From Deltaproteobacteria bacterium (lineage in GTDB: Bacteria; Desulfobacterota; Desulfobacteria; Desulfobacterales; Desulfatirhabdiaceae), in NCBI GenBank assembly GCA_026388755.1, contig JAPLJE010000412.1, positions 7,211-21,404 on the forward strand: a DNA stretch of 14,194 nt, in the 5' to 3' direction. The notes below the pieces were generated by a model. That model was not told the DNA's origin and ran no database searches. It saw nothing but the letters and a program-made list of their open reading frames with translations. The number at the start of each line of letters is the position of its first letter. Position 1 is the first letter of the stretch. Shown here one piece after another: positions 447-14,194 of this stretch. A program made the translations under genes and the position numbers.

Positions 447-1745
447 CTAAAGGCCGACTTCCGCCAGATCCGGTCCCAGGTAGGTGCGTTCGTTTTCACC
501 CAGAACACCCAGGGACAGGCAGATCAGGGTCCAGAGATGAACCGTGTGGTATTCAGCCTCGTAATGCTCGCCGATATCATGAACCTGGGCATGGCAGTTG
601 TGGCAGGGAGTAATGCAGTACTGCGCCCCGGTTGCCATGATCTGCTCGAGTTTCAGTCTGCCGTAAGCCCGTCTGGCTTCGGGAAGGCCGGATTGCAGGA
701 AGCCGCCGCCACCGCCGCAGCAGTAATTGTTGGAGCGGTTGGGAAACATGTCAATAAAATTCTCTTCACCCACAACGGATTTGACAACAAACCGCAGATC
801 CTCTGCCACCGGATCACCAAAACTTTTGCGAACGAGCTGGCAGGGATCCTGAACCGTAAACTTGACCTTCAGGTCCTTGTTCCAGTCGGAACTGACCTTG
901 AGTTTTCCTTCCCGTATCCACTGGGCATAACACTGAATAATGCTTTTGATTTCAAAATTGTAAGGAATGTTGAATTTTTTCAGTCCAGTCCGGACTGCAA
1001 AGAGTTCGTGCCCTCATTCGGTATTGAGCCAGACCTTGCACTTCAGATCATCCACGGCCTTGGCCTTGACTTCGACGATATGTTTCCACCTGTCGTTTTC
1101 AGCCAGAAACATACAGTAATTTTCAGCGGCCCATCCTTTGGAACCATAAGTCCAGTCCGCCCCTGCCAGATGCAGAATTTTCCAGAGCGGCACCATTTCA
1201 TCCGGCTCGGTAACCGGCTCCCGGGAGTTCTGATTCAGGAAAAATTCAGAGCCTACCTTGTCCATCGGCGCCTGGAGATCTTCAAATCCCGGCTGGTTTT
1301 CCCGGACCTCGTTCAGAACGTCTTCCACCACAAATCGCCAGTCTTCTTCGGTCGCGCCCATGGCGCTGCACGTGTCATTTCTGAGCGCCATGTCACAGGA
1401 GCCCACGATTCCCTTTGGCTTCAGTTCCCTGGGCCAACTGGCTCTGACATTGAACACCAGTTGGGGAATGTCGATTTTCATGGGACACACATAGATGCAG
1501 CGCTGGCACATGGTGCACATCCATGCCCACTTGGAGCTCAGGATTTCATCATCCATTCCCAGAGAGGCCATGCGCAGAAATTTCCGGGGATCCATATCTT
1601 CCAGTCCGGTAGCCGGGCATCCGGAAGAGCAGGCCCCGCAGGTCAGACAGAGGTTCAGGTTTCCGCCATCCGGCAGAAGGGCCATCACCTTGTCCTTAAA
1701 CAGGCTCTTGCCTGATTTTGACAGCCGAATGACACCTGTTGTCAT
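447..1745 (-). CDS. Selenocysteine-containing HdrC/HdrB-fused Fe-S oxidoreductase (HdrD/DsrK-like)
   Basis: The frame from ATG 1745 to TAG 449-447 encodes 432 residues if UGA at 1016-1014 is read as selenocysteine 244. Read as a stop, the gene would falsely split into 243-residue and 120-residue pieces. The N-terminal HdrC-like part binds two [4Fe-4S] clusters: C33/C36/C39/C43 (CLTCGACSSGCP) and C77/C80/C83/C87 (CTMCQRCIYVCP). The C-terminal half is an HdrB-like CCG domain: C302 (DPCQLVR), C342-C343 (NYCCGGGGG) and C381-x2-C384 (PCHNC), the pattern that binds non-cubane [4Fe-4S] clusters in HdrB/HdrD. Sec244 lies in TEUGH, where HdrD/DsrK-type relatives have TECGH. Translation is unbroken and homologous-looking across the UGA, so this is not a decayed gene. 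The likely role is the disulfide or dithiol electron-accepting partner of the HdrA encoded in the same gene string; no membrane helix is seen, so it is probably cytoplasmic. The start is supported by AAGGAG about 10 nt upstream. The physiological substrate is unknown. Confidence 0.9.
978..1016 (-). promoter_or_regulatory. UGA codon with putative bacterial SECIS hairpin in the HdrD-like gene
   Basis: UGA lies at 1016-1014. Downstream, CAGUCC (997-992) pairs perfectly with GGACUG (986-981) around a GGACU loop (991-987). UUU (1001-999) can pair with AAA (980-978), leaving a bulged G at 998. The loop's first base is a G, 23 nt after the UGA, within the usual window for bacterial SECIS elements that recruit SelB. 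The structure was read by eye and no folding energy was computed. Confidence 0.75.
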
Positions 1746-1769
1746 GATGAGATCTCCTTATTGGGTGAT

Positions 1770-1821
1770 AGGTAATGGGTTAGGGGAAAAGGTTGGGGAC
1801 TTTATCCATCTCCCATTACCT
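1770..1821 (-). repeat. Inverted repeat in the leader of the HdrD-like gene
   Basis: A perfect 10-nt inverted repeat (aggtaatggg at 1770-1779, cccattacct at 1812-1821) flanks a 32-nt loop in the 85-nt gap between the receiver gene and the HdrD-like gene. In the minus-strand RNA it would form a long-loop hairpin. It is not followed by a U run, so it does not look like an intrinsic terminator; it could be an RNA processing or stability element, or an operator. The loop also contains C-rich sequence on the minus strand. Confidence 0.45.
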
Positions 1822-1830
1822 GCTGTCTGT

Positions 1831-2220
1831 TTACATGCCCAGTAAACGCTTGACGCTCTGGGTGATGTCATCAGCAGAAGCCGGCTTGGGAAGATAATCG
1901 TCGGCTTCCGTGCTCATGCCGTCATAATGAGAATATTTTGTGGAAGTAACGCGGTCAGCCACGGCCGTCAACAGCACTATCGGAATGTTGGCGTAGGCGC
2001 TGTCTTTTTTGAGCAGCGCGCAAAGCTCAAAGCCGTCCATCTCCGGCATCATGACATCCAGGACAATGGCGTCCGGCGGATTGGCCTTAATTTTTTCAAA
2101 ACCTTCCACGCCATTGTAAGCTACTTCGGTTGCAAACCCTTCTTTTTCCAGATAGGTTTGAACGATCATCGAAAAATCAGGCTCATCGTCAACGATGAGA
2201 ATGCGTTTTTTTTCACTCAT
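1831..2220 (-). CDS. Stand-alone response-regulator receiver protein (CheY-like)
   Basis: This 129-residue protein is a single receiver domain with no output domain. The acidic pocket is D11-D12, the phosphoacceptor is D55 (IVLDVMMPEMDG), the switch Thr is T85 (VLLTA) and the conserved Lys is K112 (YLPKP). AAAGGA lies 8 nt before the ATG and fixes the start. An insertion-like stretch (about residues 88-106, ADRVTSTKYSHYDGMSTEAD) lengthens the loop before the Lys strand. It sits between metF and the HdrD-like gene on the same strand and probably pairs with the PAS sensor two genes downstream. With no DNA-binding domain, it may act through protein contact, possibly with the Hdr/Met enzymes themselves. 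That function is inferred from position only. Confidence 0.92.
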   Translation of the reverse strand: MSEKKRILIVDDEPDFSMIVQTYLEKEGFATEVAYNGVEGFEKIKANPPDAIVLDVMMPEMDGFELCALLKKDSAYANIPIVLLTAVADRVTSTKYSHYDGMSTEADDYLPKPASADDITQSVKRLLGM

Positions 2221-2365
2221 GAGTCACATCCTTTCATATCAATGGATACTGCATTAGAAGTTAAATGGACGCTAAGAAAACAAGAAAAGACAAACTATAT
2301 CATCTCGCCTTCCTACCACACCGGACACGCTAAGTCCAGTACAGGTTAACAGGATGTTTTCCCAC
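2221..2365 (-). other. Intergenic gap between metF and the receiver gene
   Basis: This 145-nt non-coding gap is the longest break within the minus-strand gene string. In the RNA sense, CUGGAC and GUCCGG can pair around a UUAGCGU loop (about 2319-2337). No U run follows, so it is not a clear terminator. An internal promoter for the receiver, HdrD-like and PAS genes could lie here, but I could not identify convincing -35 and -10 boxes. Confidence 0.35.
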
Positions 2366-3289
2366 TTAACTTTCTAACACGGGCCGAGGGTAGAGACCGG
2401 ACCGTTCCACGATTTCCGCCACTTTTTCTTCCCATTCGATGGCCATGATATGGAACCCGTGCACGCCTTCCACAGCCTTGAGGCGTTCAATTGTTTCCAC
2501 GCAAATATCGATGCCTTCCTGGGGCTGTTTTTCCTTGGGGACTCCAGCCATGCGTTTGATGACATCATCCGGAACATCCATGCCCGGAACCCGGTTTTTC
2601 ATGTACCGGGCCATGCCCACGGATTTCATCGGCGTAACGCCGGCCAGGATATGCACTTTTTCGGTAAGACCCCGTTCCCTGGCCAGCTTTACCCAGAGTT
2701 CGAACTTGTCCAGATTGTAAATGCACTGGGTCTGAATGAATTCAACGCCGGCGGCGATTTTCTTGGCCAGACGGGGAACCCGGATTTCAAAAGGATCGGC
2801 AAAGGGGTTTTCCGCGGCACCCACAAACATCCGGGGAGGCCTGTCGATATCGGCCCCGCCTAAAAATTTCCCCTCATCCCGCATGCGGCGCACTGTCTGG
2901 ATAAGCTGCATGGAATCGATATCATGCACATTCTGCCCGGTGGCACAATCCCCAAAGCTCTGGTGATCGCCAGAAAGACATAGGATGTTGTGGATATCAA
3001 AAGAAGCAGCCCCCAGGATATCGCTTTGAATTGCGATCCGGTTGCGGTTCTGAAGAACCGGTTCCAGGCCCATGAGTTTCAGGCGGATACAGGCTGCAAG
3101 GCTGCACATGCGCGTGACGGATGTCTGGTTATCGGTAACGTTGATGGCATCGACATGGTTTTTGATCAGATGCCCTTTTTCTTCGATGTGTTTGGGATCG
3201 CTGCCACGGGGAGGACCGACTTCCGAGGTGACTGCCAGATGGCCGGCGGCCAGAATTTTTTCAAGTTTGCTTGGCGTTTTAGTGGTCAT
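2366..3289 (-). CDS. metF: Methylenetetrahydrofolate reductase, MetF
   Basis: This 307-residue protein has the expected length for MetF, a TIM-barrel flavoprotein that interconverts methylene-THF and methyl-THF. Recognisable segments are the N-terminal strand with the probable catalytic acid E23 (TSEVGPPRG), INVTDNQTSVTRMCS, the QNRNRIAIQSD segment, ILCLSGDHQ, and GVTPMKSVGMARYM near the C-terminal half. Its ATG overlaps the metV stop by four bases (ATGA, 3289-3286), so the two are almost certainly translationally coupled, as expected for the MetFV complex of anaerobes. GGGAGG inside the metV end serves as its ribosome-binding site. With hdrA and mvhD upstream, it probably works in a flavin-based electron-bifurcating or confurcating methylene-THF reductase of the Wood-Ljungdahl pathway. 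The family assignment is firm; the coupling is inference from context. Confidence 0.94.
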   Translation of the reverse strand: MTTKTPSKLEKILAAGHLAVTSEVGPPRGSDPKHIEEKGHLIKNHVDAINVTDNQTSVTRMCSLAACIRLKLMGLEPVLQNRNRIAIQSDILGAASFDIHNILCLSGDHQSFGDCATGQNVHDIDSMQLIQTVRRMRDEGKFLGGADIDRPPRMFVGAAENPFADPFEIRVPRLAKKIAAGVEFIQTQCIYNLDKFELWVKLARERGLTEKVHILAGVTPMKSVGMARYMKNRVPGMDVPDDVIKRMAGVPKEKQPQEGIDICVETIERLKAVEGVHGFHIMAIEWEEKVAEIVERSGLYPRPVLES

Positions 3290-3954
3290 ATCTGCACATC
3301 CTCCCTGACGACTTTTCGGGGTCCGCCTGCCCTGTCGGTGGACCAGTCCTTGGTCGAGAAGAGCTTTTCATAGTCATCCATGCGTCCCAGAGCCTTCAGG
3401 CGGTCCACAATGAGCTGCCAGGCGCAGTCCAGGTCTTTGTTGATTTCACACTTGCCCTTGCTGGAGCCGCCGCAGGGACCATTTAAAATCCGCTTGGCGC
3501 AGCGCGAAACCGGGCAGATGCCGGCAGTGTTTGCCAGAATGCACTGGCCGCAGGCCTGGCACCGTTCCGTCCAGAGTCCCCGCTTTTCGGTGACGCCCAG
3601 AAAACAGGTGTTGACGCCCGGAAAAACCGGCTTGGACAGATATTTCTCTGCCATGAACTGGACGCCGACACCGCAGGCCAGGGAGACCACCGCGTCATAC
3701 TTGTCGATGCGGTCTCTGATTTCTTCTAGATACTCATGGTCGCACTGACGTTCCAGCGTAATTTCGTCAATCCGCATGTCTTTTCCATTGTTGATAAAAT
3801 ACATCCGCAGGGCCGATGCCAGAATGCCCACTTCTTTCTTCCCGCCTGCCTCGCAGACGGTGACGCATTCGTTGCATCCCAGAATCAGCACATTGCTATA
3901 GGCTTCCACTTGCTGAATGATTTCCTCGATGGGTTTTTTATCGGCTACAATCAT
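3286..3954 (-). CDS. metV: MetV, methylene-THF reductase C-terminal-domain / Fe-S partner of MetF
   Basis: This 222-residue cytoplasmic protein matches MetV, the Cys-rich partner that binds MetF in acetogens and other Wood-Ljungdahl anaerobes. The N-terminal part carries LILGCNECVTVCEAGG (C27, C30, C34). The C-terminal part is a dense Cys region: C132/C135/C138 (RCQACGQC), C147, C152, C161 in NGPCGG, C169 and C177. This suits Fe-S and/or Zn binding, and the NGPCGGSSKGKCE segment is typical of the family. It would pass electrons from HdrA or NAD(P)H to the MetF flavin. The gene follows mvhD after 57 nt containing a C-rich repeat, and an AGAGAGG-like site precedes the ATG. Its last codons overlap the metF start. 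Confidence is high for the family and moderate for the electron route. Confidence 0.92.
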   Translation of the reverse strand: MIVADKKPIEEIIQQVEAYSNVLILGCNECVTVCEAGGKKEVGILASALRMYFINNGKDMRIDEITLERQCDHEYLEEIRDRIDKYDAVVSLACGVGVQFMAEKYLSKPVFPGVNTCFLGVTEKRGLWTERCQACGQCILANTAGICPVSRCAKRILNGPCGGSSKGKCEINKDLDCAWQLIVDRLKALGRMDDYEKLFSTKDWSTDRAGGPRKVVREDVQI

Positions 3955-4011
3955 GGTTTGTGACCTCTCTTGTCATGATCAGGGTTTGGGGTCAGGGGTT
4001 AGGTTTTGTCT
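3955..4011 (-). other. Short mvhD-metV spacer with CCCC(T/A)-type repeat
   Basis: This 57-nt spacer contains a C-rich imperfect repeat on the minus strand, CCTAACCCCTGACCCC followed by AAACCC. Similar G/C-run sequence occurs in the 85-nt spacer at 1746-1830. No hairpin with a U run is present, so read-through from mvhD to metV is expected. Confidence 0.4.
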
Positions 4012-4443
4012 TTACGCCGCCTTTTTCATGGCCAGCTTGATGGGACTGGGTCCCAGATCGCGTATCCGTTGATCCATTTCCCGGGCGTATTCGGCAAACC
4101 GGGGGCCTTCCGCGGAAGAGAGATTGAACATCTGAACGCGTTCGCTTCCCACGCCGACAGTATCCAGGAGTTTCTTGGCCTGTTCCACCCGTTTTCTGGC
4201 CCGAAAGTTACCGCTGTTGAAATGACAGTCCCCCTCCATGCATCCAACGGCATAAACGCCGTCCGCGCCTTTTTCAAAGGCCCGGAGGATGTGGAGAATA
4301 TCCACCTTCCCCGTACAGGGCACGCGAATAATTTTGATACTGGAAGGGTAGCTGAGTCGCATCGAACCTGCCAGGTCCGCGGCCGTGTACCCTCAGAAAT
4401 TGCAGCAAAATGCCACGATAATCGGTTCAAACGCTTGCGTCAT
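4012..4443 (-). CDS. mvhD: MvhD (hydrogenase/Hdr-linking iron-sulfur subunit), selenoprotein
   Basis: The frame from ATG 4443-4441 to TAA gives 143 residues if UGA 4395-4393 is read as selenocysteine 17. Ignoring the UGA would start the gene wrongly at Met28 (ATG 4362). The N-terminus AFCCNFUGYTAADLAGSMRL matches the MvhD/VhuD/FrhD-delta signature, in which U17 is Cys or Sec. Further conserved Cys residues are C13, C14, C43 (PCTGKVD) and C68/C73 (GCMEGDCHF), expected to hold a [2Fe-2S] cluster. MvhD passes electrons between a hydrogenase or dehydrogenase and HdrA; no hydrogenase gene is in this window, so its outside partner is unknown. The start codon overlaps the hdrA stop (ATGA, 4443-4440), and GGAGGGG at the hdrA end is the ribosome-binding site, so the two are coupled. 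Sec in this family is established in methanogens and reported in deltaproteobacteria. Confidence 0.95.
4363..4395 (-). promoter_or_regulatory. UGA codon with putative bacterial SECIS hairpin in mvhD
   Basis: UGA lies at 4395-4393. CGGACCU (4379-4373) pairs with AGGUUCG (4369-4363), seven pairs including one G-U, around the triloop GGC (4372-4370). The first loop base is a G, 21 nt after the UGA. The position and loop G fit the bacterial SECIS model; the loop is small and alternative folds are possible. Confidence 0.65.
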
Positions 4444-7400
4444 AACACCCCCTCCAGCAGTGCATCTATCTTGCTGAGCAGTTGATCATCTTCGTACCAG
4501 TTAAGCTCAATCGCCTTGGCCGGACATTCAGATGCGCAGATGCCGCATCCATGGCATAGCGCCACATCGATCTCGCTGACCCCATCCGCATTGATCCGGG
4601 GCACGCCATAGGGACAGGATCGCACGCAGATCAGGCAGGACGCACACAAATCGGCTTGTACCTGGGCAGTCACCGCGGACAGGGTCAGGGTGTCCTGAGA
4701 CAGGAACGTGGTTGCCCGGGAGGCTGCCGCCATGGACTGCGCGATGGTTTCCGAAAGCAGCTTGGGGCTGTGGGCCGTACCGCAGATAAAAATCCCTTCG
4801 GTGGCCATATCCACGGGCCGAAGTTTGACATGGGCTTCCAGGTAATAGCCTTCGGCATTTCGCGCCAGCTTCATGATGGAGGAAAGCTCTTCGGTTTCTC
4901 CCGCCACCATTCCGGCGCTGAGGACCAGAAGATTGGCGCTGATCTGCAGCCTGCGCCGGATGATCGGATCCGTAAATACAACTTCAACGCCTTCCGAAGT
5001 GAATTCAACAACCGGCATGTCTTCCGGAGTATAGCGGAAAAACAGAATGCCCAGTTTTCTGGCTTCGGTGAAATAATCTTCCAGAAGCCCGTAGGTGCGA
5101 ATGTCCCGGTACAGGACACTCACTTCAGCCTCCGGATTCATGGCCTTGATATGCAGGGCGTTTTTAATGGCGCTCTGGCAGCAGATCCGGGAACAGTTGG
5201 GGTTTTCATCGTTTCGAGAACCGATACACTGGATCATGACCACCTGATTCAGCTTCGAAGCCGCCTCTGTTTCCAGGAATTTGCCCAGCTCTACCTGAGT
5301 CATGACCCGGGAATCCTGGCCATAGCCAAATTCCTTGGGCTTGTATTCAGTGGCGCCGGTAGCCAGAATCACGGCGCCATGGTCAATCTTTCGCTCATAC
5401 ATGCCCGGTCCCACCAGCACTTCCGTGGTGAAATTGCCCTTGAATCCGGTAAACCCCACGATGAGCGACTGGGTCAGAACCTGAAGGTTGGGGTGGGATC
5501 TGGCTTTTTGAATCAGCTCTTCCAGATAGGACTGAACATCGGCGCCTTCGATGGTTTTGGTCAGACGCCGGGCCATGCCGCCAAGCTCCGGCTCTTTTTC
5601 AACCAGAACAACTTCAAATCCCTGATCCGCCAGGCCAAGGGCGGCGGTCATGCCGCCCACGCCTCCGCCGACCACCAGTGCCCGCTTGTTGACGGGTATC
5701 TGTTTTTCATGAAGCGCCTTTAAGGTTCCGGCGCGCGCCACGGCCATCCGTACCAGTTCCTTGGCTTTCTGGGTTGCCTGCATGGGGCTGTCCGAATGAA
5801 TCCAGGAATCCTGGTTTCGGATATTGGCCATTTCAAAAAGATATTTATTGAGTCCGCAGGCCTGAAGGGTGTCCATGAAAATGGCCTCATGGGTCTTGGG
5901 GCTGCAGGATGCCACGACTACCCGATTCAACTGGTGCTCCCGGATCAGTTCCTTCATCAGGTCCTGGGCATCCTGAGAGCAGGAGAAGAGGTTCTGTCCG
6001 GCATAAACCACATTTGGAAGGGTTGCGGAATAGGCCTGTACGGCCGGAACATCCACGACTCCCGCAATATTGATGCCGCAGTTGCAGACAAAGACGCCGA
6101 TCCGGGGGATCAGGCCTTCCACGGCCATTTCTTCCGGAATGGTAACAGTTTTGGTACAGGAAAACCTTACCGGCGCCAGATTGGCTCCCGCAGCACAGGC
6201 TGCGGCGCTGGCCTCAATAACCGAGGAGGGGATGTCCTTGGGACCCTGGAATACGCCGCCCACATATACGCCCGGACGGGAGCTTTCAACGGGCGTAAAC
6301 GGATGCGTGGATGCAAACCGGTATTTTCCCAGATCCACATTCAGTCGCCCGGCCAGATCCACCGAGGATTGGGGTATCTGAAGCCCCACGGAGAGCACAA
6401 CCATGTCAAAGATTTCTTTTTGGATCTCGCCGGCGTCATCCACATAGCGGATGACCAGCTCACCGGTTTCCGGAACCTCGTCGATGGTATGGATCCTGGA
6501 TTTGACGAACCGTACACCAGTTTTGTCCTTTGCCCGGAGATAATATTTTTCATAATCTTTTCCAAAGGAGCGGATATCCATGTTGAAAATGGCGCAATCC
6601 AGATTGCCGCCGGCATGCTCCTTGGCGATCATGGCTTCCTTGATGGCGTACATGCAGCAAACGGACGAGCAGTAGCCGTTGCCGCATCGGTTGACATCCC
6701 TTGAGCCCACGCACTGAAGCCAGGCAATGCGCCTGGGTTCGGTGTGGTCCGAGAGCTTCACCAAATGTCCCATGGTGGGTCCGGATGCGCTCAGGATACG
6801 CTCAAACTCGAGGCTGGTCACCACATTGGGGTTTTTTCCATAGTGGTAGAACTGCTGCATCGGGGCAGGGTCAAAGGTCTGGCTGCCCGGACACAGAATT
6901 ACCGAACCGACGGGGATATTCCGGATCACCATTTCCTGATGGTGATCCACGGCATTGGCCAGACAGGCATCCACGCACTGATAACATTCCGAGCAGATGC
7001 CGCAGGCCAGACACCGGTCCGCCTCTTTTCGGGTGGCTTCTTCTTCAAATCCGAGCTGGACTTCGTTGAAATTGGCAACCCGGGTGTTTGAAGGCGTGTG
7101 GGGCATGGGCTCTCTGCCGGCTTTTTGATATCCTTCCACCGGCACACCGGTCACGGCCGTCCAGTCGACTTCCCGGCCTTCCAGAAGATCCAGTCCCTGA
7201 ATGAAGCGGTTGATGGAAACGGCCGCCTCTTTCCCCGCCTGAATGGCCTCGACAACGGTTTTTGGGCCGGTGACCGCATCGCCTCCGGAAAAAATATCCG
7301 GGTCCTTGGACTGAAGGGTAACAGGATCCACGACCATGGTTCCCCAGCCGGTAAGGGTGCAGGCGCATTCCTCGGTCAGACAGGCCCAGTCGGACTCCTG

Positions 7401-8927
7401 ACCGATGGCAGGGATCACGGTGTCCACTTCAATGATGAACTCGGATCCCTTGACCGGAACCGGCCTGCGTCTGCCGCTGGCGTCCGGTTCCCCCAAGGCC
7501 ATCTGGATACATTCTATTGCTTTGACCTTGCCGGCGTCATCACCGATGATCCGCACCGGATGGGTCAGGGTCTTGATCTCAATGCCTTCGTCCTCGCATT
7601 CCTCGATTTCATCCCGGCTTGCCGGCATTTCATCCATGCTCCGGCGGTAGATGATAAACGGCTTTTTGGAACCGGTTCTAAGGGCGGTGCGGACCGAATC
7701 CATGGCCACGTTTCCGCCGCCAATGACCGCCACCCGATCCCCCAGTTGTATCCGGTTTCCCAGATTCACTTCCCTGAGGAACTCAACGCCCGGATAGACG
7801 CCGGACAGGGATTCGCCCTCTATCCCCAGCCGCTTGCATTCATGGGCGCCGATGGCCACGAAAAAGGCTTTATAACCATTCTCCCGAAGCTGGGAAATGG
7901 TAAAATCCTTTCCAATTTCCACACCGGTCTTGAATTGAACCCCCAGATCCTTCATCACCTGAATTTCGGATTCAATAATATCCCGGGGAAGGCGATAGGA
8001 CGGAATGCCGACGGTCAGCATGCCGCCAAGAACCGGCAGCTTTTCAAAAACCGTTACAGAATAGCCTTCAATAGCCAGATAATACGCGGCGGTCAGGCCC
8101 GCTGGGCCTGCGCCGACAATGGCGACTTTCTCGTTTTTCGATTCCTTGACCTTGGGAACAAATGGAGAGCCGCTTTTTAAATCCTCGTCCGCCAGAAAGC
8201 GGTGAAGGTATTGAATGCTGATGGGCTCGTCCACCTGATTCCGGGTGCAGATGCCTTCGCAGGGGTGATGGCAGACACGGCCGCAGACTCCGGGAAAAGG
8301 ATGGTCCTGCTTGAAGAGCTCCAATGCTTCCCGGTATTTTCCCGCATTGATCAGGGCGATGAATCCCTGAACGCTGACATGGGCCGGGCACATGGCCTTG
8401 CAGGGCGCCGTGCCCCGCTTGCTGATGGCAAACGCACCGGGAATTGCCTGCGCATACTGCTTGAATGCAGCCTTTCGCGTGGTAAGGGACTTGTTGTATT
8501 CGTCCGGAACGCTGATGGGACAGACCTTGGCGCATTCCCCGCAGCTGGTGCATTTGGAAAGATCAATATAACGGGGCTTCTGGCGAATCCTAGCCGTAAA
8601 ACTGCCGGGATTGCCGCTGAGATCCAGAAGCTCGGTTTGGGTCAATAACTCGATGTTCAGATGCCGGCCGACCTCGACCAGTTTGGGTGAGATCACTCAC
8701 ATGGCGCAGTCGTTGGTGGGAAACGTCTTGTCAATCTGGGACATCATGCCGCCCACTGCCGCCGACTCCTCAACCAGATACACATAATATCCGGAGTTGG
8801 CCAGATCGAGCGCGGACTGCATGCCCGCTATTCCTGCGCCCACAACCATTACGGAACCCACCAGCGGTTGCGAAGCGCCACCAGCGCTTTCAGCCATTGG
8901 AAGAAGGGGGTCTGCCTGTTTTTCCAT
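4440..8927 (-). CDS. hdrA: HdrA-type flavoprotein with embedded GltD/NfnB module, selenoprotein
   Basis: ATG 8927 to TGA 4442-4440 gives 1495 residues with UGA 8699-8697 read as Sec77. Without recoding it splits into 76- and 1418-residue pieces. In order: an HdrA FAD start with GAGIAG (30-35) and PTNDCAMU (C74, U77) then [12 protein letters not shown]; a ferredoxin site C126/C129/C132/C136; a GltD/NfnB-like module with Cys-rich N-part (C176, C180, C215, C219, C223, C227), FAD GAGPAG (272-277), NAD(P)H GGGNVA (403-408) and FSGGDAV (about 546); a six-Cys cluster C639-C655; an HdrA Cys motif C748/C753/C757/C758; then a second HdrA unit with CNCG (C948, C950), GGGVGG (1087-1092) and C1234/C1245/C1249/C1250; finally two ferredoxins (C1428-C1438, C1458-C1468). 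It could hold up to three FADs and many Fe-S clusters. It is probably the cytoplasmic electron-bifurcating hub, and the insert suggests its own NAD(P)H site. AAAGGA precedes the ATG. Its stop overlaps the mvhD start. Confidence 0.95.
8664..8699 (-). promoter_or_regulatory. UGA codon with putative bacterial SECIS hairpin in hdrA
   Basis: UGA lies at 8699-8697. CUGGUC (8681-8676) pairs with GGCCGG (8669-8664), six pairs of which two are G-U, around the loop GAGGUC (8675-8670). The loop starts with G, includes GGU as in the well-studied E. coli formate dehydrogenase SECIS loop, and begins 22 nt after the UGA. Confidence 0.75.
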
Positions 8928-9005: not shown

Positions 9006-9875
9006 TTAGATTCTTTCAAGGATGTCGGGGAGTTTGTCTTCCCACCCGATGGTTGATACCGACACGCCGCTGAACCCCTCGGATCTGAGTGCGGCAATCA
9101 TTTCAGCGGCAATCTGAATGCATTCCCGAACCTTGTCGGGCGCATTCTGTATTCGGGTGATGACGGTGTCAGGAATCACCACATGCTCGACATTTCGGGA
9201 CATATAACGGGCCATGCCCGCTGATTTCAGAAGCAGGACAGTCGGAATAACGGCGATCCGGCTGCGGTCAACTCGATTGTTAAAGGGACCCAGGGTGCCC
9301 AGATCAAACACCGGCGGGGTAATGAAAAATCTAGCGCCGCTGTTGCTCTTTTGGTTGAGAAGTTCTATTTCAGTTTCCAGGCTCTCTCCCTTGGCTTGGG
9401 CCTGGACCGTCGATCCCACCAGAAATCGGGGGGACCCTCTCAAATCAATGCCTGCCATGTCTTTGCCGTCCTGGAGCTTTTTCAGGGAATCCAGCAGTTC
9501 CATCAGGGTAATGTCGTAAACCGCCATGGCCTGATGATGATCCCCGAAGCGGGGGTCCTGGCCGGAGACCGCCATGACATTGGAAATGCCGCAGGCCGAG
9601 GCAGCCAGCAGATCCGCCTGCAGCGCAAGCCGGTTGCGGTCCCTACAGCAGATCTGCATGACGGTTTCCATGCCGGCCTGCTGAAGGGCGATCGCGCCGC
9701 CAAGGGAACTCATGCGCATCACCGCGTTGCTCATTTCGGGAATCAGGAAGGCATCAACCTTCTCTTTGACACGCCTGGCGTTCTTGATCATGGAAGAGAT
9801 GTCAGCGCCTTTGGGAGGTTCCATCTCAGCCAAGACCACAAACTCTCCGGCCTCTATCTTGGTTTTCAGATGCAT
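9006..9875 (-). CDS. MetF-family protein, divergent paralogue of methylenetetrahydrofolate reductase
   Basis: This 289-residue protein has a MetF-like TIM barrel: VVLAEMEPPKGAD at the N-terminus (probable catalytic acid E17), CCRDRNRLALQADLLAA, VMAVSGQDPRFGDHH, and SAGMARYM late in the sequence, all paralleling the second MetF in this window. It differs at conserved places: the TDNQTS-type segment is replaced by PEMSNAVMRMS, and the SGD motif reads SGQD. It may therefore act on a different folate or pterin substrate, form a hetero-oligomer, or have altered kinetics. GGAGGAAA lies 6 nt before the ATG and fixes the start. It is the first minus-strand gene after the divergent intergenic region and lies 78 nt upstream of hdrA on the same strand, so it is likely cotranscribed with it. 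I would not name it metF without a phylogeny. Confidence 0.85.
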   Translation of the reverse strand: MHLKTKIEAGEFVVLAEMEPPKGADISSMIKNARRVKEKVDAFLIPEMSNAVMRMSSLGGAIALQQAGMETVMQICCRDRNRLALQADLLAASACGISNVMAVSGQDPRFGDHHQAMAVYDITLMELLDSLKKLQDGKDMAGIDLRGSPRFLVGSTVQAQAKGESLETEIELLNQKSNSGARFFITPPVFDLGTLGPFNNRVDRSRIAVIPTVLLLKSAGMARYMSRNVEHVVIPDTVITRIQNAPDKVRECIQIAAEMIAALRSEGFSGVSVSTIGWEDKLPDILERI

Positions 9876-10150
9876 CGGGTTTCCTCCAGACTTGGGTGGG
9901 ACCGAAATTTAACTGGAAATGACATACATACTATCAATGTTGTTTATTCCATTAACTCATTTAGAATATTTTGGTCAAGAAAAAAATATAAAGTTTTATT
10001 TAGTAAATGAATTAAAATCATATTGATGCTGTTAACAGGATATTTGCCGGATAATCATGGACTTTTTTTCTAATCGCCTATATTGAAAATGGATCAGAAT
10101 TCATTGGAGCCCTCTGGGCACCATTGCCTTATTGTTGATTCAGGAGAAAT
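9876..10150. promoter_or_regulatory. AT-rich divergent intergenic region
   Basis: This 275-nt region separates the minus-strand Hdr/Met gene string from the plus-strand transporter, so it should hold promoters for both. On the minus strand, TTGACC (9978-9973) with a 17-nt spacer to TTAATG (9955-9950) is a weak sigma-70-like candidate. On the plus strand it holds the duplicated promoter-like element at 10048-10090. No open reading frame of interest and no clear sigma-54 site (GG-N10-GC) were found. Confidence 0.45.
10048..10090 (+). promoter_or_regulatory. Promoter-like 43-nt element, copy A (upstream of the transporter gene)
   Basis: This segment is 38/43 identical, without gaps, to 11615-11657. 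It contains TGGACT (10058-10063), a 15-nt spacer and TATATT (10079-10084), resembling -35 and -10 boxes with a short spacer. It ends about 60 nt before the transporter start. The match in two independent upstream regions suggests shared regulation, though a recent local duplication is also possible. Confidence 0.5.
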
Positions 10151-11547
10151 GTGTTGATGCAACAAAGTGTATCCCGGGGCGCCACCCTGTTCGCGGTCGG
10201 CACTGCCTCCTTTCTCATGCCGTTCATGCTCTCCGGCGTGGGCGTGGCCCTTCCGTCGATCGGCCGGGAGCTTTCTGCCAGTGCCATTCAGCTCAGCCTG
10301 GTAGAGACCGCCTATATGCTGTCGGTTCAGCCTATATGCTGTCCGTTTCCATTTTTATGCTGACCATGGGAAGGCTCGGGGATATTCACGGGCGCCGGCG
10401 CATCTTTCAGTATGGAATTGCCGTTTTTACGCTGATGGGCGGACTGTTGTCTCAGGCGTGGTCCATTCACGCTGTCATCGTATTCCGGTTTCTGCAGGGC
10501 ATCGGCGGCGCCATGATTGCGGCCACGGGGATGGCCATTGTCGTTTCCGTCTTTCCCCCCGAACAAAGAGGCAAGGCTCTGGGGATCACCGTGGCCTGTG
10601 TATATGCCGGTCTTTCCTGTGGACCTTTTGTCGGCGGATCTCTTATCACGGCGTTTGGCTGGCGGTCTTTGTTCTACCTGTGCGTACCGCTGGGAGCCGG
10701 CAGTTTTTTTCTGGTCGGTTGGAAACTGCGCGGCGAATGGGCTGACGCCAAGGGCGAACCGTTTGACTGGATAGGGGCGGCTGCGTATGCATGCGCCATT
10801 GTTGTTCTGATTGTTGGAGCTGCCAATCTTGGACATGCAAAATGGTCGTGGGGGCTTCTGGCAGCTGGTATTGCCGGATTGGGTATGTTTATCGCATTGG
10901 AGATGCGGACAAAACATCCGGTGCTGAACGTGAGCCTTTTTAGAAACAACCGGGTGTTTGCCCTGAGCAGTCTGGCGGCCCTTCTCAACTACGCCGCCAC
11001 CTTCGGGGTGACTTTTTTCTTCAGCCTCTACCTGCAGTTTGTAAAGGGCATGACGCCGCAGCAGGCCGGAGCGGTCCTCATCGTTCAGCCCGTGGCCCAG
11101 GCACTGTTTTCACCACTTTGCGGACGCCTTTCGGACCGGTATTCTGCGGAGTGGGTGGCTACGGGAGGCATGGCGCTCTGCGCTACGGGCCTTGGTATCA
11201 GCGCGGCTATTTCCGCATTTACATCCCTGCCGGTTCTTGTCGCCGTCTTCCTGTTGCTGGGGCTTGGCTTTGCCCTGTTTTCATCCCCCAACATGAGCGT
11301 GATCATGGGCAGCGTGGCACCCAGATATCTTGGTGTGGCATCAGGGCTTGTTGGCAGCATGCGCACCCTGGGCATGATGACCAGCATGACGATCATCACA
11401 GTTCTGCTGTCTGTCTTTATGAAAGGCCATTCGATCACATTCGAAACCCAGACCGACTTTCTTCTGACCATGCGAGCAGCCCTGGCGTGTTTCTGTCTGC
11501 TGTGCGGCGGAGGTATTCTGTGCTCTATCGGCAGACTGCGCCGCTGA
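10151..11547 (+). pseudogene. MFS (DHA2-like) multidrug-type transporter gene, frameshifted
   Basis: Two frames together encode one MFS transporter. The first frame (from GTG 10151, or TTG 10154 or ATG 10157; ribosome-binding AGGAG at 10142-10146) gives the first transmembrane helix, FAVGTASFLMPFMLSGVGVA, up to VETAYMLSV, then runs into a stop at 10361-10363. The second frame resumes AYMLSVSIFMLTMGRLGD (MFS motif A, GRLGDIHGRRR) and continues through about a dozen or more hydrophobic helices to the end IGRLRR. The shift comes from an imperfect 20-nt tandem duplication at 10310-10349; removing either copy restores the frame. The joined protein would be about 455 residues, typical for a DHA2 drug:H+ antiporter in the inner membrane. 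The natural substrate cannot be told. A sequencing or assembly error is a possible alternative to true inactivation. The N-terminal part of the second open frame (10132 to about 10330) is out-of-frame and not real protein. Confidence 0.85.
10310..10349 (+). repeat. 20-nt imperfect tandem duplication causing the transporter frameshift
   Basis: Copy 1 (10310-10329) and copy 2 (10330-10349) share GCCTATATGCTGTC and differ at three later positions. Because 20 is not a multiple of three, the duplication shifts the frame by two bases. Both copies encode AYMLSV in their own frames, which marks the duplication point exactly. Confidence 0.85.
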
Positions 11548-11755
11548 AGACATGAATCCCTCTTTCGCAAAAACGGCTGTCCATTGCCTGTTTCAGTCAT
11601 TCGAAGCCGACTTGCGGATAATTATGGACTTTTCTCCGAATCGCCTATATTAAAAATATGATACGATCATGCCACATGATGAGAAGCCACCATAGATGAT
11701 AATGCACGGTTAAAATGAATCGAATAAAGTCGGGATATCGAATGCCACAGGGATT
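11548..11755 (+). other. Intergenic region between the transporter and the histidine kinase
   Basis: This 208-nt region has no credible gene. It contains the second copy of the 43-nt promoter-like element (11615-11657), so the kinase and regulator probably have their own promoter. No strong hairpin plus U run was found after the transporter stop, only a weak CGGCT/AGCCG pairing with a long loop. Confidence 0.5.
11615..11657 (+). promoter_or_regulatory. Promoter-like 43-nt element, copy B (upstream of the histidine kinase)
   Basis: Ungapped match to 10048-10090 with five differences. TGGACT (11625-11630) and TATATT (11646-11651) keep exactly the same 15-nt spacing. It ends 98 nt before the kinase start. 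Confidence 0.5.
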
Positions 11756-13192
11756 ATGAAAATGCGATGGAAACTCTATTTAAACATCCGTCAAAAAGTC
11801 ATTTTCGGGCTGACGCTCGGGATGATGGCAGTTGCGCTGGTGGGGGGGTTGTCCTACCGGTATCTTAAAGAGATCGAACGCAAACAGCATTTCGTTGAGG
11901 TCGCTGATGACCTGAACAATGTCATTCTGGAGATTCGAAGGTATGAAAAAAATTTTCTACTCTATGGGGCCGAGCAGGATTTTACTGAAAACCGGTTGTT
12001 TATCGAAAAGGGTCTGAGCGCCATTGACTCTATCGCTCCAGAAATACAGAACTTGAAAGGCGCCCCGCATTTGAACCTTCTCGCACAGGAATTTCTGGCA
12101 TATCGGTCCATCATGGAACAAATTGAAAAGTCCGGCTGCCAGCACCTGCGCTCCTGCGATCAGAAAATCGAAGACAGATTGCGGGAACAGGGAAAAAAAC
12201 TCCTGGACCTTTCACATCAACTGGTCACTTATGAGCGCCAGCGCATATTGACCATCATCAAATCATTAAAAAGCCAACTGGCCGCATCCATTGTCCTGTT
12301 CATTTTTACCGGACTGTTTCTGATTGTCGTGGTCATCAAAAAAATCATTCGGCCCCTGAAGGCTATCGAACAGGCAACGCACCAGATTGCCCAGGGAGAT
12401 TTCAGCCATTTACCGATTACGGATAATTGGGATGAAACCCAACAGGTATTGCAGGCATTGAACCGGATGACTTCCGAACTGGAAAAACGCCAGGAACAGC
12501 TCCTTCAGGCCAGAAAGCTCTCCTCTATCGGAATACTGACATCCGGAGTGGCCCACCAGTTGAACAACCCCCTTAACAATATTTCAACCTCCTGCCAGAT
12601 TCTTCTGGAGGAATTCGGCCAGGGCGACCCGGAATTCATGCGTAAAATGCTGACCAATATCGAGCAGGAAGTCCACCGGGCACGGGACACGGTCAAGGGG
12701 CTTCTGGAATTTTCCCGGGACAAGGAATTTGCGCTGATCCCCCATTCGCTCAAGGAAGTGGTGGAGCGGTCGGTCCGGCTCATGTCCAGTCAGGTACCGC
12801 CGGGTATCGATATCGTGCGGAATGTTCCGGCGGATATGATTTTGAATCTGGATGCCCAACGTCTTCAGGAAGTTTTTATCAACCTTCTGATGAATGCGGT
12901 CCAGGCCATTGAAAGTCCTCCCGGACAAATCCGCATTTCTGCAATCCCGGATCAGAATGCCCATCAGGCGGTCATCGCCGTGGAAGATACGGGAGCTGGA
13001 ATTCCCGAGAATCATTTCAGCCAGATTTTTGACCCGTTTTTCACCACCAAACCCGTGGGTACGGGAACGGGCATGGGGCTTTCCGTCGTATACGGGATTA
13101 TCCAGAAGCATCAGGGAACGATTTCGGTTGAAAGCAAGGTCGGCGAAGGCACCCGATTCAGCATCCGATTGCCTTTACAGCAATCCGCATAA
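11756..13192 (+). CDS. Membrane sensor histidine kinase (two-TM, HAMP, HisKA, HATPase)
   Basis: This 478-residue kinase has a first membrane helix at about 13-35 (VIFGLTLGMMAVALVGGL), an all-helical periplasmic sensor region (about 36-176) and a second helix at about 177-195. A HAMP linker follows (about 197-250), then the HisKA H-box with phospho-acceptor H267 (GVAHQLNNPLNNI) and the ATPase core: N-box N380 (INLLMNAVQAI), G1 DTGAGI (411-416), F-box FDPFFTTK (425-432) and G2 GTGTGMGLSVV (435-445). The sensor part includes EIRRYEKNFLLYG, typical of helical-bundle (HBM-like) ligand-binding domains, so a small soluble ligand is likely; C128 and C134 could form a periplasmic disulfide. The GVAHQLNNPL box and G2 style fit NtrB/AtoS-like kinases that pair with NtrC-type regulators, and such a regulator gene starts 13 nt downstream. 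Two ATGs (11756, 11762) are possible starts. Confidence 0.93.
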   Translation: MKMRWKLYLNIRQKVIFGLTLGMMAVALVGGLSYRYLKEIERKQHFVEVADDLNNVILEIRRYEKNFLLYGAEQDFTENRLFIEKGLSAIDSIAPEIQNLKGAPHLNLLAQEFLAYRSIMEQIEKSGCQHLRSCDQKIEDRLREQGKKLLDLSHQLVTYERQRILTIIKSLKSQLAASIVLFIFTGLFLIVVVIKKIIRPLKAIEQATHQIAQGDFSHLPITDNWDETQQVLQALNRMTSELEKRQEQLLQARKLSSIGILTSGVAHQLNNPLNNISTSCQILLEEFGQGDPEFMRKMLTNIEQEVHRARDTVKGLLEFSRDKEFALIPHSLKEVVERSVRLMSSQVPPGIDIVRNVPADMILNLDAQRLQEVFINLLMNAVQAIESPPGQIRISAIPDQNAHQAVIAVEDTGAGIPENHFSQIFDPFFTTKPVGTGTGMGLSVVYGIIQKHQGTISVESKVGEGTRFSIRLPLQQSA

Positions 13193-13205
13193 GGAAGGTC
13201 AAACG

Positions 13206-14194
13206 ATGGCCGCGCGTATATTGATTGTGGACGACGAAAGCATCGCCCGGGAAAATCTGGGATATATTCTTCGGAAGGAAGGCTTTGAGACCGTTTGCGT
13301 GGACAGCGGGATGAAAGCCCTTCAGGAGCTGGAAAACCGGGATTTTGATCTGGTAATGACTGATCTTCGGATGCAGGGCATGGACGGCATGGAAGTGGTG
13401 GAACAGACCCGGGAAAAATATCCGAGCACGGAGGTCATTGTCGTTACCGGCTATGCTACGGTTACCACTGCGGTCGAGGCCATGCAGAAAGGCGCGTTCT
13501 ATTATCTTCCCAAGCCCTATCAGATTGATGAGGTTCGCATTCTGGTGCACCAGGCCATCGAAAAACGGTCTCTTCGACAGGAAGTTGCCGAATTAAAGAA
13601 ACAAATCCAGTCCCAGCAGACATTTCCCCTCCTGATCGGACAGAATCCGAAAATGATCTCCCTGAAAAACACCATTGAGCAGATCTCACCCGCGGACTGC
13701 ACGGTATTGATTCTGGGAGAAACCGGAACCGGAAAGGAACTTGTCGCCAAAACCATTCACCAGTTGAGCCATCGATCCGCAAAACGTTTTCTGGCCATAA
13801 ACTGCGGAGCGTTCAATGAAGAACTGCTGGCCAATGAGCTTTTTGGGCATGAAAAAGAAGCCTTTACCGGCGCACGGGGAATCCGCAAGGGCCTGCTGGA
13901 ATCGGTGCAGGGCGGAGCCATTCTGCTGGATGAGATCGGGGATATGCCGCTTTCCATGCAGGTAAATCTGCTTCGGGTGCTTCAGGAAAGAACCCTGATT
14001 CGCGTCGGCGGGGTTGAAGAAATTCCCATCGACATCCGAATTCTGGCAGCCACAAACAAGGATTTGAAAACAGAGGTCGACGCCGGAAAATTCCGGCAGG
14101 ATCTGTTTTACCGCTTGAACGTCATTTCCCTGCACGTTCCTCCCCTGACAGATCGAAAAGACACCCTTGCCCTGTTGTGCCGGCATTTCATGAA
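13206..14194 (+). CDS. NtrC-family sigma-54-dependent response regulator (partial, 3' end outside window)
   Basis: An open frame from ATG 13206 (ribosome-binding AAGGAAGG at 13191-13198) runs to the window edge, giving about 329 residues. The receiver domain has D9-D10, phosphoacceptor D53 (LVMTDLRMQGMDG), T81 (VVTGYAT) and K103 (YYLPKP). After a helical linker (about 106-140) comes the AAA+ domain: Walker A GETGTGKE (171-178), the sigma-54 contact loop reading EAFTGA (218-223) in place of the usual GAFTGA, Walker B GGAILLDEIG (236-245), and the sensor region LAATNKDL followed by FRQDLFYRLNVI. The C-terminal DNA-binding helix-turn-helix lies outside the window. It is probably the partner of the kinase just upstream and would activate sigma-54 promoters on phosphorylation. 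No sigma-54 site was found in the visible intergenic regions, so its targets are probably elsewhere. Confidence 0.93.
   Translation, partial: MAARILIVDDESIARENLGYILRKEGFETVCVDSGMKALQELENRDFDLVMTDLRMQGMDGMEVVEQTREKYPSTEVIVVTGYATVTTAVEAMQKGAFYYLPKPYQIDEVRILVHQAIEKRSLRQEVAELKKQIQSQQTFPLLIGQNPKMISLKNTIEQISPADCTVLILGETGTGKELVAKTIHQLSHRSAKRFLAINCGAFNEELLANELFGHEKEAFTGARGIRKGLLESVQGGAILLDEIGDMPLSMQVNLLRVLQERTLIRVGGVEEIPIDIRILAATNKDLKTEVDAGKFRQDLFYRLNVISLHVPPLTDRKDTLALLCRHFM

Follow-up and report, generated by a model that had tools for sequence, protein, structure and literature searches.

Among the described systems closest to the one examined here is the MetFV-HdrABC-MvhD complex of Moorella, a reductase of methylene-tetrahydrofolate (methylene-THF) for which electron bifurcation from NADH has been proposed (PMC5861303); its hdrBC genes lie inside the MetVF cluster (PMC5736913). 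In a related cluster of Chloroflexi, hdrC is fused to hdrB and a two-component system adjoins metF (PMC5736913); other relatives are known from Thermacetogenium, with hdrB and hdrC located elsewhere (PMC6895022), and from Seep-SRB1g, as metF-HdrABC (PMC10553843). Operons of the hdrA-frhD-glpC kind with several selenocysteines (Sec) have been in print since 2006 (PMC1794560), and a review of 2026 covers them, naming the family motifs CxxU (HdrA and MvhD/FrhD) and UGH (GlpC-like iron–sulfur (Fe-S) oxidoreductase) (PMC13188914). Here we analyse a gene string on the minus strand of a 14,194-nucleotide (nt) stretch, called the window below, of contig JAPLJE010000412.1 from a deltaproteobacterium of the Desulfatirhabdiaceae. 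Three of its genes, encoding a large HdrA-type protein (HdrL), an MvhD and an HdrD-like protein, contain in-frame UGA codons, and the string also encodes MetF and MetV.

Predicted selenocysteine codons and their hairpins

Three minus-strand frames of the window are open when UGA is read as a residue, and the frame list and translations contain a single UGA in each. The codons and the selenocysteine insertion sequence (SECIS)-like hairpins that follow them are listed below in window positions, with cysteine (Cys) as the alternative residue.

8697..8699, minus strand: UGA, Sec77 of HdrL, CxxU motif (CAMU, context NDCAM-U-VIS); of 127 clusters, 78 have Sec here and 49 have Cys
8664..8681, minus strand: SECIS-like hairpin of HdrL with AGGU as its loop, behind a spacer of 22 nt from the UGA; all seven pairs kept in Sec orthologues
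4393..4395, minus strand: UGA, Sec17 of MvhD, CxxU motif (CNFU, context CCNF-U-GYT); X at this site in 9sfi_K
4363..4379, minus strand: SECIS-like hairpin of MvhD with GGC as its loop, behind a spacer of 20 nt from the UGA; six pairs kept in Sec orthologues
1014..1016, minus strand: UGA, Sec244 of the HdrD-like protein, UGH motif (context LNTE-U-GHE); of the 77 distinct relatives fetched, 60 have Sec here and 17 have Cys
981..997, minus strand: SECIS-like hairpin of the HdrD-like gene with GGACU as its loop, behind a spacer of 22 nt from the UGA; stem kept in Sec relatives

All three sites stand at the named family motifs within proteins that carry the family domains. The HdrL and MvhD sites coincide with non-standard residues printed X in PDB entry 9sfi, in chain A (9sfi_A) and chain K respectively, and X is presumably Sec at both. 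The genome itself contains SelA and tRNA-Sec. The claim of an earlier sequence-only reading that three selenoprotein genes lie in one minus-strand string is upheld, and the spacers of 22, 20 and 22 nt place the first loop base at nt 21 to 23 after the UGA, as that reading had stated.

Orthologues were collected with MetV as the survey anchor. A MetV relative was found at E 1e-20 in 277 of 395 genomes of the phylum, and 80 listed MetV places, chosen by rank, were fetched; a scan of titled genome records confirmed at least 570 MetV relatives, of which the best 80 were kept. A search for HdrD-like proteins in the same 395 genomes gave a match at E 1e-40 in 140. Forty places were taken first. A first set of HdrD-like genes numbered 56 (48 Sec, 8 Cys), and with 20 more places the set came to 77 (60 Sec, 17 Cys); the larger set left the conclusion unchanged, with Sec-HdrD beside Cys-HdrA more frequent. 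The MetV-cluster counts derive from 200 loci plus the window (201 sequences). Overlapping matches in the cluster scan were resolved by a same-frame rule, and 165 MetV clusters of at least 52% identity were obtained, 162 after removal of near-identical ones. Both the HdrA and MvhD sites were read in 127 clusters, the other 35 being set aside with genes or sites missing from the stretch or unread. Because the places were picked by rank, close relatives of the window are favoured, and the proportions below are not population frequencies.

The bacterial SECIS model specifies a loop of 3–9 nt with a G in the first two positions, located 16–37 nt after the UGA, and an energy of −7.5 kcal/mol or better (PMC13188914). 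All three hairpins satisfy the loop and spacing limits, and the isolated HdrA (−9.1 kcal/mol) and HdrD (−7.9 kcal/mol) hairpins lie within the energy limit. Several results weigh against the assignment: the isolated MvhD hairpin (−6.9 kcal/mol) misses the energy limit, which the contiguous hairpin reaches in only 3 of 124 Sec MvhD genes; single-sequence folding was no better than shuffles (z of −0.04, −0.63 and −1.12); and a search of Rfam gave no family at gathering score. Because single-sequence folding was not significant, and too weak to serve as proof of a SECIS element, we relied on comparison of Sec with Cys orthologues.

In this comparison, the hairpins follow the codon. All seven pairs of the HdrA hairpin are present in 77 of 78 Sec orthologues and in 1 of 49 Cys orthologues. 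For MvhD, the six pairs are complete in 91 of 96 Sec genes at a MetV identity of at least 66%; below 66%, where divergence is matched, they are complete in 28 of 28 Sec genes and in none of 28 Cys genes. The HdrD-like stem has 6–9 pairs in 60 of 60 Sec genes and 1–5 pairs in 17 of 17 Cys genes. At third codon positions of the hairpin, the majority share in the large Sec groups is 0.91–0.99, versus 0.47–0.55 further downstream; the corresponding shares are 0.53–0.68 versus 0.50–0.58 in Cys genes and 1.00 versus 0.88 in a group of only three Sec HdrA rows below 70%. From one Sec gene to another the pairs hardly differ, and the evidence is therefore conservation and loss rather than compensatory change. 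Synonymous shuffles of the Sec genes, made with the codons of these genes themselves, gave modest mean z values (−1.19, −1.43 and −1.22), with 3 of 77, 7 of 124 and 2 of 21 genes below 5% of their own shuffles, because those codons already carry the hairpin. Every orthologue with a readable codon has Sec or Cys at the site, so UGA placement at these loci is not random. This comparative evidence carries the case, and by it the three UGAs are shown, at the level of sequence, to be Sec codons with conserved SECIS hairpins.

A candidate methylene-THF reductase and its HdrD-like neighbour

The genes of the string are as follows, in the order of transcription.

9006..9875, minus strand: MetF-like protein, 289 amino acids (aa), first gene of the string; PF02219; homologue upstream of HdrA in many relatives
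4440..8927, minus strand: HdrL-type HdrA fusion, 1496 aa; NF040770 in four stretches below its cut-off, PRK12771 above its cut-off, PDB matches
4012..4443, minus strand: MvhD / FlpD, 143 aa; PF02662; overlaps HdrL by 4 nt
3286..3954, minus strand: MetV-type protein, 222 aa; PF12225 (MTHFR C-terminal domain); survey anchor
2366..3289, minus strand: MetF, 307 aa; PF02219; overlaps MetV by 4 nt
1831..2220, minus strand: receiver-only response regulator; PF00072
447..1745, minus strand: HdrD-like protein, 432 aa, a fusion of HdrC and HdrB (CCG) of the GlpC-like selenoprotein family (UGH); PF02754 and Fer4 domains

The distances between these genes, from the MetF-like to the HdrD-like gene, are 78, −4, 57, −4, 145 and 85 nt. 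The order HdrA-MvhD-MetV-MetF is kept across the relatives in the survey. As in MetFV-HdrABC-MvhD, metF, metV, hdrA and mvhD stand together in one cluster, which is most likely a relative of the Moorella methylene-THF reductase. We consider it probable that the string encodes a methylene-THF reductase of the MetFV-HdrA-MvhD kind, in a version with HdrL and an optional HdrD-like port. HdrL consists of an HdrA module split around an NfnL/GltD-like module and followed by a second HdrA part, with PDB matches to HdrA and NfnL/NfnA. In the proposed scheme, MetF and MetV would act on methyl-THF and methylene-THF, and MvhD would hand electrons on to the flavin of HdrL, in which the NfnL/GltD-like module would contribute an NAD(P) site and the clusters would lead to ferredoxin; the HdrD-like HdrC/HdrB fusion would be an optional further electron port. 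If the Wood-Ljungdahl pathway runs oxidatively, as we suppose, methyl-THF oxidation would be coupled to ferredoxin and NAD(P). That the proteins form a single complex, the direction of electron flow, the tuning of Fe-S or thiol chemistry by Sec and the role of the HdrD-like protein are what we infer within this scheme. Three observations count against it: in profile searches, NF040770 and the VhuD family scored below their curated cut-offs; most MetV clusters are without an HdrD-like gene; and the MvhD hairpin by itself falls short of the SECIS energy limit.

The second of these points bears on whether the HdrD-like protein belongs to the enzyme at all. It could instead be a separate Sec oxidoreductase, with a thiol/disulfide or DsrC-type partner, that is often encoded near Hdr clusters and is not a subunit of MetVF, a serious possibility that we nevertheless hold to be somewhat doubtful. 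The HdrCB-like fusion, a possible counterpart of HdrB and HdrC in the string, occurs in few of the relatives' clusters: an HdrD-like gene with its site read is present in 21 of 162 MetV clusters, with Sec in all 21, and a further cluster has one with the site unread, so one fixed three-part system, as in the sequence-only reading, is not supported. Many HdrD-like homologues stand alone or adjoin other HdrA-MvhD pairs.

The structure of the protein also bears on this alternative. By sequence it matches HdrC, and its AlphaFold model (mean pLDDT 84.1; 22 rows) matches EtfD and HdrB chains. Cys302, 342, 343, 381 and 384 are invariant in the C-terminal CCG module, whereas the N-terminal CCG module is degenerate, its sole invariant residues being Cys211 and Sec/Cys244. 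HdrB has a motif of five Cys; measured against it, a noncubane cluster of the normal kind would be unlikely at Sec244, and a thiol/selenol role is therefore as plausible as a ligand role. The earlier reading placed the UGAs at Cys-ligand-like positions; the 9sfi matches of the HdrA and MvhD sites count in its favour, and at the HdrD site a simple function as ligand is not supported.

The Sec state of the HdrD-like gene is likewise its own. In the 77-gene set, the HdrA beside a Sec-HdrD is Sec in 17 cases and Cys in 21 (21 of 38 read; 22 are without a read HdrA nearby), and because of this split the HdrD site does not follow the HdrA state. Beside Cys-HdrD, HdrA is Cys in 11 of 11 (six more are without a read HdrA nearby), and Sec-HdrA with Cys-HdrD is the empty class. 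The partners of the 21 HdrD-like genes in MetV clusters are 12 Sec/Sec, 2 Cys/Sec and 2 Cys/Cys pairs of HdrA and MvhD, with HdrA unread in five (in one of these, MvhD also). An HdrD-like relative of at least 65% identity is among the matches listed in 11 of 25 Sec/Sec genomes. What speaks for a place in the enzyme is that MetV lies within 6 kb on the same strand in 28 of 48 Sec HdrD-like genes of the first set, which is enriched for MetV loci, and that hdrBC lies in the Moorella cluster and an hdrC-hdrB fusion in a Chloroflexi cluster (PMC5736913).

The string is headed by a second MetF-like protein (9006–9875) without a MetV of its own, which recurs upstream of HdrA in many relatives. Where both sites were read, a response regulator occupies the corresponding position in 58 of 77 and 31 of 50 clusters, a total of 89 of 127. 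A histidine kinase gene lies downstream of HdrD (4754–5653 of locus L289, minus strand), with a kinase homologue of at least 58% identity in 11 of 19 related loci tested, and a two-component system may accompany the cluster. On the opposite strand, window positions 10132–14194 (plus) hold an MFS-type transporter, a sensor kinase and an NtrC-type regulator, as read from translations alone. Scans for promoters (8 promoter-like sites versus a shuffle mean of 6.5) and terminators (18 terminator-like sites versus 12.5) were uninformative. A distant MvhD homologue has a Ser codon at the Sec/Cys site (L293 1315–3067, L300, L301 and L302); it adjoins a more distant HdrD-like gene of 35–37% identity with a UGA in the context WPE-U-GH.

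Sec and Cys states across relatives

The HdrA/MvhD states of the 127 clusters are Sec/Sec in 78, Cys/Sec in 25, Cys/Cys in 24 and Sec/Cys in none. At a MetV identity of at least 70% (n = 77), 75 are Sec/Sec and 2 Cys/Sec (L185 and L083); below 70% (n = 50), 24 are Cys/Cys, 23 Cys/Sec and 3 Sec/Sec. Among all 146 adjacent HdrA-MvhD pairs, MetV-linked or not, 81 are Sec/Sec, 32 Cys/Cys, 26 Cys/Sec and 7 Sec/Cys; all seven of the last have a CNWC-type MvhD, a type with Cys in 13 of 13.

On a quick-method tree of 127 rows, each a MetV joined to its MetF, the minimum number of state changes is two for HdrA and five for MvhD; on the HdrD tree, it is eight for the HdrD-like gene. With changes so few, the simplest reading is that the Sec/Cys pattern is mostly inheritance, with nested, lineage-bound use of Sec. 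By sequence comparison, Sec use in the cluster is shown to be old and nested.

The sequence-only reading in full, namely selection for selenolate chemistry across a whole complex, with three sites that switch together with selenium supply, appears improbable. Twelve clusters do have Sec at all three sites, locus L196 of the cultured relative Desulfonema magnum also carries Sec at each of the three, and HdrA is associated with MvhD (Fisher p = 1.3e-12) and with HdrD (p = 0.009) when relatedness is ignored. These associations rest on few events, given the few state changes on the trees, and for the same reason an independent-pairs test had too few contrasts to show joint change. The mixed classes (Cys/Sec in 25 of 127 clusters, Sec/Cys in 7 of 146 pairs, Sec-HdrD beside Cys-HdrA in 21 of 38) contradict strict joint switching; the empty classes (0 of 127 and 0 of 11) equally leave full independence of the states unestablished.

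Some genomes contain both versions of the cluster. All 10 genomes in which at least two MetV clusters were read (10 of 73) have one with Sec-MvhD and one with Cys-MvhD; in each case the second cluster is a distant paralogue, and sampling was by rank. Two genomes, G254 (L209/L241) and G295 (L227/L239), each have a Sec-rich and an all-Cys version of a tandem HdrA-MvhD-HdrA-MvhD-HdrD-MetV cluster, in which the first MvhD of the Sec-rich version is Cys. Both observations would also suit a response to selenium supply. We tentatively suggest, while thinking it rather unlikely in its entirety, that Sec was taken up in nested order along the electron path and that parallel Sec and Cys methylene-THF reductase complexes may serve as selenium-dependent isoenzymes of central carbon metabolism. 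The proposed order rests on the facts that the HdrD-like protein and the MetV-linked MvhD can be Sec with a Cys HdrA, and that Sec-HdrA occurs with a Cys MetV-linked MvhD in 0 of 127 clusters and beside a Cys HdrD in 0 of 11.

Presence of SelA was considered as an explanation of Sec versus Cys clusters and rejected, SelA being found in nearly all genomes of each class: in 355 of the 395 genomes, in all 25 Sec/Sec, all 23 Cys/Cys and 22 of 24 Cys/Sec genomes. A SelA match was absent in the Cys/Sec genomes G164 and G392, which are 73% and 90% complete.

It is extremely improbable, despite the weak single-sequence folding, that the UGAs are stops or another reassignment, or that they reflect frameless pseudogenes or assembly errors, since many assemblies made independently share them (the HdrA and MvhD UGAs together in 78 clusters), the alternative codon is Cys, the hairpins are locked at third codon positions and the genome has the Sec machinery.

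Comparison with described systems

Sec is already known in all three protein families, and the co-occurrence that the sequence-only reading had singled out as notable was in print in 2006 in the several-Sec glpC-hdrA-frhD operons (PMC1794560). The glpC-hdrA-frhD-frhG-frhA operon of Syntrophobacter and Desulfotalea shares with the window a Sec HdrA, the MvhD family (FrhD) and a GlpC-like protein in one operon of Deltaproteobacteria; it is hydrogenase-linked (PMC1794560), whereas the string described here is linked to MetF/MetV, with no frhG or frhA among its listed frames and domains. In Desulfobacterium autotrophicum HRM2, HdrL1 and HdrL3 are Sec-containing HdrA-glutamate synthase fusions followed by mvhD, MvhD is itself a selenoprotein, and the same genome has a Sec HdrD (HdrD4); the available part of that paper mentions no metVF neighbour of hdrL (PMC2702500). 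The likeness to the window lies in domains, among them the NfnL/GltD-like module added to HdrA, and in gene order.

Moorella thermoacetica has MetF, MetV, HdrA and MvhD in one cluster, as here (PMC5861303, PMC5736913), but its HdrB and HdrC are separate, whereas the window has an HdrCB fusion and an NfnL/GltD module within HdrA. For Moorella as an organism, one Sec HdrA and one Sec FrhD are listed (PMC1794560). In literature that covered few subscription papers, and hence as a weak negative, we found no account of a MetVF-linked HdrL-MvhD-HdrD string with Sec in all three proteins, of a nested pattern that lacks the pairing of Sec-HdrA with a Cys HdrD or with a Cys MetV-linked MvhD, or of a genome in which a Sec cluster and a Cys cluster exist in parallel.

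With the present locus, Sec-rich Hdr operons reach beyond the hydrogenases to a cluster linked to folate and widespread in one phylum, and its relatives supply an unusually clean set of Sec and Cys orthologues with locked or lost SECIS hairpins. The Vhu/Vhc and HdrA isoenzymes of Methanococcus likewise have Sec in HdrA and VhuD, with Sec and Cys versions in one genome; they differ in being archaeal and in that selenium control, through HrsM, has been demonstrated there (PMC11097638). The genomes with both Sec and Cys clusters are places where selenium control of central carbon metabolism could be directly measurable.

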